A stretch of 28,082 nt of DNA. Source: a virus. Numbering within the stretch: the stretch's first letter is position 1; the number at the start of each line of letters is the position of its first letter. The stretch lies in IMG/VR virus record IMGVR_UViG_3300037278_000784, positions 1 to 28,082 of that record, one strand, 5' to 3'. Below, one piece after another: positions 17,047-21,006 of the stretch. The notes under the pieces are model-generated. The model saw nothing but the letters and a program-made list of their open reading frames with translations. It searched no databases and was not told the origin of the DNA. A program made the position numbers and the translations under genes.

Positions 17047-17440
17047 ATGGCAGTGATCGTTGGCTTTGACCAAATCCCAAAACATACTTATCAGATCATC
17101 TATGCAGATCCTCCTTGGGAAGTGGATGGGGGCAGTTGGACGATTTCAGAACTTTTGAAAGGGGAAAATTGGTTTTGTCAAAAGAAAGGACTCAGCTTGG
17201 TTTCTACAGCCAAGAATATGCAATCATTCAGAAAAGCCAGCAGAATTTCGTGACATGATCGTTGACGTTCATGGCAACCTCCCTCGCATTGAACTATTTG
17301 CTCGACAAAAAACTCCTAACTGGGACATATGGGGAAATGAATTAGAAAATTGTTTTGACTATGGCAAGAAGGAGGCCCCATGCTCGCAGAACCTGACAAA
17401 TATGCCTACAACAGATTTGGATACAAAGGCAAGCGTGTAG
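17047..17440 (+). pseudogene. Decayed MT-A70-type adenine DNA methyltransferase
   Basis: Two frames each hold part of one enzyme. 17047-17253 has YQIIYADPPWEVDGG, the DPPW catalytic motif IV. The next frame (from ~17158 to 17440) has GFVKRKDSAWFLQPR, then NHSEKPAEFRDMIV, LPRIELFARQ and NWDIWGNE, the conserved end of the family. The middle ~100 residues that carry most of the fold are missing and the parts are out of phase, so no active N6-adenine methylase can be made. AGGAGG precedes the ATG, and the neighbouring gene is intact. An enzyme of this family would protect phage DNA from host restriction. Confidence 0.8.
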
Positions 17441-19464: not shown

Positions 19465-21006
19465 ATGAGTATAACAACCACGAGTACGCTCCCTGCTCCC
19501 GTCCAGCAGACCTTCTCGTACAAGTTGCTTTCAGTTCCTGTGCCTTATATGATCCATAAGATCCCGGCCGAACTGAAGCAAATGCCACGTAATGGTGGTA
19601 CGACCCTTAACTAGTCTAGGGGTCGATAAATCTTCTCTGATTGACTTGAAAACCTTACCAGGTAATGCTGGAGGCAACAAGGGGCAAGTATAACACATAC
19701 AGCCTGAACGTAGCAAGCGAGAAGACCCTTCGGGGATGCGGTGCTCTGAACATTGCAGAAATGCAGTGAGTGAAGTGCAATAGGCTTCACCTCCCAGCGA
19801 TGGGAAGTAACAAAATTGTAGAATGCGACGGTATAATCCATTGGCAACTTGTCCTGTGCCGTTGGGGAACTTGGGTGTAGACCCAGCGCCCCAAAATTTG
19901 ACCGCATTGAATATTGATGCGAAAATGGATTTTTACGGTACCTACATATTGCTCAACGAGCAGGTAACCTTACAAAACCAAGATCCTGTATTAAATGAAG
20001 CTACGCAAAGGCTGGGTAAAAAGTATGCCCAGGATAAACTTTCTCTTATTGACTTGGAACTCCAGGAAGCTGCATAAGCATGGAAGACAAGGGGCAAGGA
20101 TATGTTATGTAACAATTGTATGTATGAACTTTTAAGAGAATTATCATTAACCTTACACGGTGGTGGTGCTTTTTATTGTATGACCCTCACATGTACAGAC
20201 AATAATAAATGTGACAAAGAAAAGTTCAAGAACGATTTGTTAAAAATTATCCAGCCTGAACGACTAAATGAGAAAGCTCCGAAAGGAGATGCGATAGTCT
20301 GAACAGCGACAATAAATAAAATCGCTGAGGCTGATTCGAAGAAGTCGGCCCGCCAGTAGGTGACGATTTGTCACCGACTGGTCACAAAAGTAACAGAATG
20401 GTATCTCTCCGTCAAACTGAAGATCAGTTGATGCGGGACATGCTGAGCGCAACAGCGACATTAGTGAACTGTGTCGGTGGTAATGATGGTGATAACCCAA
20501 CAGAAATCACACGCACAGACGTAGACTACGTCGTCAGAACGCTACGTGGGAATAATGCCTACAGCTTTTTGACGGGAGTCGAAGGGGAAAATCGATTTGG
20601 AACAGCGCCAGTACGCGACGCTTACTTTGGCCTTGGCCACACAAACCTCATAGGGCAGTTGGACAATGTCAATGGATTCACCCAGAAATGGAACTACCCT
20701 AATCAACAGTCCACCCTCGATGCAGAATGGGGTACATGCGCCAATATTAGATTTTTACTTTCTAGTGTCGGTTCTGTAACTCCTAACGCGTCAATGCTTG
20801 GAGCTGATTGCTACAATATTTTCTGTTGTGGCAGAGAAAGTTTCGCAGCTATCGAACAAGATGGGCATTCTGCACGGTTCATATACCGTCCGCCCATTTT
20901 TAGCGGCGCTCTAGCCCAAAATGCTAGTGTGGGATTCGTATTCGCTGAGGTTCCTCGTATCCTCAACGATCAGTGGCTTTTAAATCTACGATGCACATTG
21001 GCATAA
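19465..21006 (+). CDS. Major capsid protein, gene split by two group I introns
   Basis: Exons 19465-19607, 19819-20017 and 20401-21006 join into 948 nt, 315 residues plus stop, with no frame problem. Exon 1 runs MSITTTSTLPAPVQQ to ...RNGGTTL. Exon 2 continues RMRRYNPLATCPVPLGN, IDAKMDFYGTYILLNEQVT and QNQDPVLNEATQRLG. Exon 3 continues VSLRQTEDQLMRDMLSATAT, TAPVRDAYFGLGHTNLIGQL, and AEVPRILNDQWLLNLRCTLA. This order is that of N4 gp56/P22-type HK97-fold coat proteins. Unspliced RNA stops at TAG 19612, so capsid production depends on splicing. No ribosome site precedes the ATG, only an A-rich leader. Confidence 0.92.
19608..19818 (+). ncRNA. Group I intron 1 of the capsid gene (211 nt, no ORF)
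   Basis: P1: exon CGACCCT pairs with AGGGGTCG, with U.G at the splice site. The intron ends in G (19818). P10: TCTA before the guide pairs with exon TAGA. P7: GAGCA (one bulged U) with TGCTC. P8: CCC-TTCG-GGG. P9: CATTGCA-GAAA-TGCAGTG. Then hairpins GTGAAG/CTTCAC and CCCA-GCGA-TGGG. It interrupts codon 48 in phase 2. It is very small for a group I intron but the core strands are all present. Confidence 0.85.
20018..20400 (+). ncRNA. Group I intron 2 of the capsid gene (383 nt, contains ORF)
   Basis: P1: exon CTGGGT pairs with GCCCAG, U.G at the splice site; terminal G at 20400. It shares ATTGACTTG, ACAAGGGGCAAG, CAGCCTGAACG, GATGCG and AAGTAACA with intron 1. P7 GACTA/TAGTC, P8 CTCC-GAAA-GGAG and P9 CAGCGA/TCGCTG differ from intron 1 but keep pairing. 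It lies after codon 114, phase 0. The extra length is an insert with an ORF between conserved core strands. Confidence 0.85.
20102..20302 (+). CDS. Small cysteine-rich ORF within intron 2
   Basis: 66 codons starting MLCNNCMYELLRELSLTLHG, with cysteines at about 3, 6, 26, 31 and 37, then KFKNDLLKIIQPERLNEKAP. The last ~16 codons are the intron's own P7/P8 core. Five spaced cysteines could form a zinc site, but the frame is far too short for a known homing endonuclease and shows no GIY-YIG, HNH or LAGLIDADG motif. It may be a remnant of one, or untranslated. An AAGGAT run lies almost against the ATG. Confidence 0.35.
   Translation: MLCNNCMYELLRELSLTLHGGGAFYCMTLTCTDNNKCDKEKFKNDLLKIIQPERLNEKAPKGDAIV

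Follow-up and report, generated by a model that had tools for sequence, protein, structure and literature searches.

A phage coat gene split by two group I introns of a clade whose late members probably end unspliced capsid protein in ssrA-like tags

Introduction

The td and other introns of phage T4 combine a P1 helix carrying a U.G pair at the cut, a P3–P8 core and a terminal G, and some of their loops hold endonuclease genes. The major capsid genes of mycobacteriophage LittleE and lactococcal phage Tuc2009 also contain an intron, one per gene as described, and splicing of the LittleE intron was shown by RT-PCR (reverse transcription PCR) (PMC3706429). According to a review, the ribosome is halted directly behind the splice junction in most group I introns (PMC3073962). 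The subject of this analysis is the coat gene at positions 19465-21006 (+ strand) of the 28-kb IMG/VR virus record IMGVR_UViG_3300037278_000784, examined over its 28,082 nucleotides (nt; hereafter the window). The gene is interrupted by two segments whose clade has the same features as the T4 introns.

Several differences set the clade apart. The T4 introns are matched by the Rfam group I model RF00028, but the window clade is not. Read-through of T4 td terminates at once without a tag (VFLG-stop), whereas the frame entering introns of the window clade runs across P1, P3 and P4 into P5; the clade departs from the usual rule because its frame continues into the intron. Against the single introns of LittleE and Tuc2009, the window gene has two and its relatives have up to five, at many sites, and the available part of the LittleE/Tuc2009 description mentions no read-through tag (PMC3706429). 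Introns of staphylococcal Sepunavirus are about 86% identical to the clade over 41 nt of the P8-P7-P9 part and match a model of it, R1, weakly (E 0.002); they are annotated as Intron_gpI, whereas the window clade is missed by RF00028. The read-through peptides resemble the ssrA tag in their C-terminal LAA, LVA or AA, and one family has ANDxxFALVA beside the host tag ANDERFALAA. LVA is a variant of the ssrA degradation tag, which is encoded by transfer-messenger RNA (tmRNA). The introns are of a known kind, group I; the read-through tag is the new element, and core-less inserts in relatives are the lead that departs furthest from known systems. The literature searched held no report of an intron-encoded ssrA tag or of core-less group I mini-introns, which does not prove that none exists.

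Results and Discussion

Structure of the split coat gene

Excision of 19608-19818 and 20018-20400 from 19465-21006 leaves a stop-free frame of 315 codons, and the 315-residue product matches PHROG 1357, major head protein (3.3e-27). Relatives were drawn from IMG/VR, where the best 80 of 131 were examined; 50 of the 80 align over their full length, uninterrupted across both predicted joins, many at 80-87% identity. The comparison with intronless homologues proposed in an earlier note on this DNA therefore agrees with its claim that removing segments of 211 and 383 nt restores the coat protein. The joins 19607/19819 and 20017/20401 were also recovered by a spliced aligner restricted to exon-U/intron-G junctions. 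The exons are as follows.

19465..19607, + strand: coat gene exon 1 (codons 1-47 plus 2 nt); spliced frame, homologue alignment, junction-restricted aligner
19819..20017, + strand: coat gene exon 2; spliced frame, homologue alignment, junction-restricted aligner
20401..21006, + strand: coat gene exon 3, up to the stop codon; spliced frame, homologue alignment

Both intervening segments have group I anatomy, with P7 and P3 interlocked as the group I pseudoknot.

19608..19818, + strand: group I intron 1, 211 nt; pairings, spliced frame, leave-out covariance model
19601-19607 with 19619-19625, + strand: intron 1 P1, CGACCCU/GGGGUCG, U.G at the cut
19615-19618 with 19819-19822, + strand: intron 1 P10, UAGA/UCUA, 4 pairs, by inspection
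19631-19637 with 19719-19725, + strand: intron 1 P3, UCUUCUC/GAGAAGA
19710-19715 with 19742-19746, + strand: intron 1 P7, G(U)AGCA/UGCUC, bulged U
19726-19735, + strand: intron 1 P8
19631..19751, + strand: intron 1 catalytic core; leave-out covariance model, E 8e-14
20018..20400, + strand: group I intron 2, 383 nt, with a large insertion in P6; pairings, spliced frame, leave-out model
20012-20017 with 20027-20032, + strand: intron 2 P1, CUGGGU/GCCCAG, U.G at the cut
20023-20026 with 20401-20404, + strand: intron 2 P10, GUAU/GUAU, 4 pairs, by inspection
20039-20045 with 20270-20276, + strand: intron 2 P3, CUUUCUC/GAGAAAG
20262-20266 with 20295-20299, + strand: intron 2 P7
20277-20288, + strand: intron 2 P8

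The P1 helices with U.G at the cut and the terminal G of each intron are as the earlier note had read them, and its P8 letters also stand; its P7 for intron 1 (GAGCA) does not, the 5' strand being G(U)AGCA with a bulged U. P3, P10 and P4 (CUUG/CAAG) are helices additional to those it named. Covariation was assessed for P3, P4, P5, P6, P7 and P8 in an alignment of 15 related cores from the coat gene, with long loops trimmed by hand. Over P3–P8, 95.4% of cells pair, and both sides have changed in 19 of 26 pairs; the covariation score was 0.561, compared with 0.200 after shuffling (none of 500 reached the observed value) and at most 0.138 in slid versions. P10 helices of at least 3 base pairs (bp) were present in 59 of 91 distinct introns of the clade, against a mean of 15.1 and a maximum of 27 when 3' exons were shuffled.

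Both introns were recovered, intron 1 at E 8e-14 and intron 2 at 3e-7, by a covariance model from whose construction all window sequence was excluded; no other place in the window scored below E 0.001. The 5' half of intron 2, set apart by the P6 insertion, gives a third, weaker match (0.0075), and the model revealed no further intron of the clade in the window above chance (best other place, E 0.24). Collectively, the intronless homologues, anatomy, covariation and leave-out model strongly support the assignment made in the earlier note, that the coat gene is split by two group I introns. The sequences are metagenomic contigs, and another reading is a gene broken by dead remnants or by assembly errors in a defective phage. 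Such an origin is scarcely credible, given that the identical 1542-bp allele occurs in four other IMG/VR contigs, that the exons are in frame and conserved, and that P1, P10 and the core helices covary.

Read-through ends of late introns

Translation of each 5' exon was continued into its intron, and introns of the window-type coat gene were divided into late (nt 237 or later) and early (up to nt 157). In late introns the unspliced frame is open across the 5' strands of P1, P3 and P4 and then usually reaches Ala-Ala-stop. This ending occurs in the exon frame of 49 of 87 distinct late inserts, versus 0 of 87 in each of the other frames, and in none of 13 early inserts (Fisher 1e-4 versus late); as a baseline, 12 of 432 open reading frames (ORFs) of at least 120 amino acids in these loci end in Ala-Ala. 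The Ala-Ala is written with eleven codon pairs, and each of the three stop codons occurs. Of 64 late introns, 53 read the conserved core ATTGACTTG as Ile-Asp-Leu, against 1 of 10 early ones, and because this reading holds in all three insertion phases, the spacing before ATTGACTTG follows phase. Most introns place the tag in P5; it is found in L1 instead if that loop houses an endonuclease gene, and core-less inserts (described below) also contain it. In the window, the read-through frame of intron 2 ends ...LELQEAA-stop (codons GAA GCT GCA TAA, 20066-20077).

20018..20077, + strand: in-frame read-through of exon 2 into intron 2, KKYAQDKLSLIDLELQEAA-stop; putative C-terminal degron

Read-through of other capsid genes also yields tag-like ends. 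The P22-like coat family (PHROG 283) has introns at nt 1205-1220 that give INVANDEKFALVA, INVANDSSFALVA, INECANDQSFALVA and INGANDKMFAMVA, each followed by a stop. This family spells ANDEKFALVA-stop, near the Burkholderiales ssrA tag ANDERFALAA, and the tmRNA tag of one Burkholderiales metagenome-assembled genome (MAG) with a member of the clade is ANDERFALAA; a match between intron tag and host tag is what a degron role predicts. The P22-like coat gene was found in another Burkholderiales MAG as well (L208; L numbers are locus labels). An annotated coat fragment in GenBank MW202674, a genome from a spring, ends AYFLLAA-stop. Clade introns outside capsid genes carried no tag in ribonucleotide reductase (L108 and phage CRP-118) or portal genes. 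The end signature thus depends on both the position of the intron and the gene.

These patterns probably reflect a clade of self-splicing introns in which late members tag the unspliced coat product with an ssrA-like degron. Judged from anatomy and covariation, each intron would be removed in the usual two steps, initiated by guanosine, with the P1/P10 guide and P3–P8 core that it carries itself. Coupled transcription and translation lets ribosomes enter an intron ahead of splicing. Introns deep enough in a capsid gene would hold the exon frame open, often up to Ala-Ala-stop or an ssrA-like peptide, and a ribosome entering unspliced message would make a truncated coat protein whose C terminus is like the host tmRNA degradation tag. 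ClpXP-type proteases would then remove the fragment before capsid assembly, which truncated capsid fragments could poison, is affected. A degron on longer fragments and none below about 53 residues is as expected from selection against such products. A degron built into the introns, as we infer from sequence, would clear truncated capsid protein, and such tagging for destruction would explain how a gene that is highly expressed and critical for assembly can tolerate introns.

Several observations weigh against this interpretation. The RF00028 search proposed in the earlier note gave no match in either segment, or elsewhere in the window, at permissive thresholds (E<=10), and none in eight relatives; three T4 introns were strongly matched in a control (E<=1.2e-8). 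The clade is therefore undetected by RF00028, and since the leave-out model finds both introns, the miss is a limit of the Rfam model, which a recent paper describes as incomplete (PMC11878797). The aligner used for the joins accepts only introns that are preceded by U and end in G. An ssrA-like end, taken as C-terminal Ala-Ala or a tag-like peptide, is present in intron 2 (EAA) and absent from intron 1, whose read-through ends LN-stop, untagged, and gives a truncated product of only 49 residues. Some late introns end in VAFS, VALS or YGVS, and introns at the same site share ancestry, so that the counts are not independent. In late introns of other capsid families the Ala-Ala end is found in 6 of 25 and a final Ala in 12 of 25 (1 each in the other frames), and Leu, Ile or Val followed by His is a frequent end. 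Full-length P22-like coat protein itself ends RVAA, and Ala-Ala alone therefore need not mean instability. Finally, the P5 hairpin could be partly held by RNA structure.

The last point leads to an explanation in which the introns are ordinary group I introns and Ala-Ala-stop is a by-product of conserved RNA, the P5 hairpin GCNGC-loop-GC, with no degron role. The tag codons do lie mostly in this hairpin, which adjoins the conserved core. However, Ala-Ala-stop also occurs outside P5, in L1 tags and core-less inserts, and ANDEKFALVA-stop is not P5 sequence. The ending is missing from both other frames, early sites avoid the frame, and variation in codon choice at wobble positions and among all three stop codons opposes RNA structure as the sole cause. 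Overall, the by-product explanation is unlikely. A second class of read-through end (VAFS, VALS, YGVS or VVLN) was seen at L119, L162, L194, L196, L103, L134, L160, L167, L178, L087 and L280.

The earlier note had proposed that dependence on two splicing events offers a control point for capsid production late in infection. For T4 introns, a dependence of splicing on translation and on growth state has been reported (cited in PMC3073962 and PMC11878797), and a switch in which splicing efficiency times the coat protein would be in keeping with this. However, about half of the relatives, at least 50, lack an intron in this gene, close relatives differ widely in the site and number of introns, and neither a sensor nor a regulatory domain was observed. 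The tag resembles damage control for unspliced message more than a timing switch, and the proposed control point is highly improbable.

Distribution of the clade

Inserts were found in 64 of 114 distinct genes of the coat family, a sample enriched for introns since part of its loci were drawn by intron pattern; there were up to five per gene (L207 and L171), at more than 25 sites. A gene-blind scan of IMG/VR with the core pattern returned at least 120 stretches, and classification was performed on the first 80 loci. Among these, 41 introns had a spliced frame long enough for classification: 37 were of capsid type, 3 were in portal genes and 1 in a ribonucleotide reductase gene. The capsid-type introns fall into four gene groups. 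Three of these groups matched major-head families of PHROG; the L098-type group, without a match in PHROG, counts as capsid by its look only. Some relatives encode LAGLIDADG endonuclease ORFs in L1 or P6. In 84,980 bacterial and archaeal genomes the core pattern occurred in nine stretches, several of them phage contigs in bins, and the clade therefore appears to be largely phage-borne. Together, these surveys point to a compact group I clade, widespread in environmental phages and concentrated in capsid genes. In practice, Rfam does not detect capsid genes split by this clade, and annotation records them as fragments.

Three loci are of separate interest. L207 (3400-6570 of JAJFUZ010000398.1, a 39,844-bp contig of a Parachlamydia MAG) carries a capsid gene with five or more introns. 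L207 and L214 are window-related phage contigs in MAGs assigned to Parachlamydia, a hint, from binning only, of a chlamydial host. In cultured Roseobacter phage CRP-118 (L358; OR420741.1, 35055-35456) a clade member splits a ribonucleotide reductase gene that is annotated as two genes, which makes this phage useful for bench work.

Core-less inserts in related genes

Relatives, but not the window gene, also contain core-less inserts of 34-65 nt that keep P1, P10 and the final G and are always followed closely by a full intron. The window-type gene has ten variants of 39-65 nt at nt 264 (L070 3207-3245, L071, L075, L076, L077, L102, L103, L106, L322 and L325), with a P1 of 6-8 bp including U.G, a P10 of 4-6 bp, a G end and no core. 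A full intron follows 26 or 48 nt downstream in all ten, and the insert is present in 0 of 82 genes without one (p = 9.5e-7). P10 tracks the 3' exon (ACC/GGU, ACA/UGU, ACU/AGU, ACG/CGU, CAA/UUG), with a fit exceeding all 20,000 shuffles of 3' exons, and P1 position 7 is paired in 9 of 10 despite an exon base of C or T. The junction becomes ambiguous by one base once the U/G end constraint of the aligner is dropped, but insert-bearing genes always have GGT at nt 264, where intronless genes use all four Gly codons. The P22-like coat gene carries such inserts at nt 119, 34-40 nt long, in ten loci as seven variants (L097, L105, L123, L133, L139, L141 and L147), each 34 nt upstream of a full intron; three further loci have the full intron alone and 26 have neither. 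The L098-type gene adds two more, L100 and L124 (nt 48).

These inserts are possibly mini-introns spliced by the core of the neighbouring full intron, the account favoured here. If so, they would be non-autonomous group I introns using a core 21-48 nt downstream, comparable within group I to degenerate group II introns whose core has been lost. Ribosomal bypassing, in which the insert would be skipped during translation, is a less likely account. At nt 264 the take-off triplet GGT does not match the last triplets of the insert (ATG, TTG or AAG), and the U...G ends, the U.G of P1 and the complementarity of P10 to the 3' exon all hold. An origin as remnants of dead introns is unlikely, with both helices kept in about 19 variants from three genes and P10 following changes in the 3' exon. 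That host-mimicking capsid degrons and mini-introns spliced by a downstream core both exist is judged to have slightly less than an even chance.

Other features of the window

At 17047-17440, two adjacent short ORFs resemble, by eye, the ends of an MT-A70-type methyltransferase with its middle missing (DPPWE ... IELFARQ..NWDIWGNE); no intron core was found in this interval, and the first ORF had no Pfam match. The P6 insertion of intron 2 contains one further feature.

20102..20302, + strand: 66-codon ORF inside the intron 2 P6 insertion, extending into the core; no match in Pfam

Small, diverse ORFs also occupy the P6 insertions of L061, L068 and other introns. Several are Cys-rich, and they extend into the core, often ending QPERLNE...DAIV-stop.
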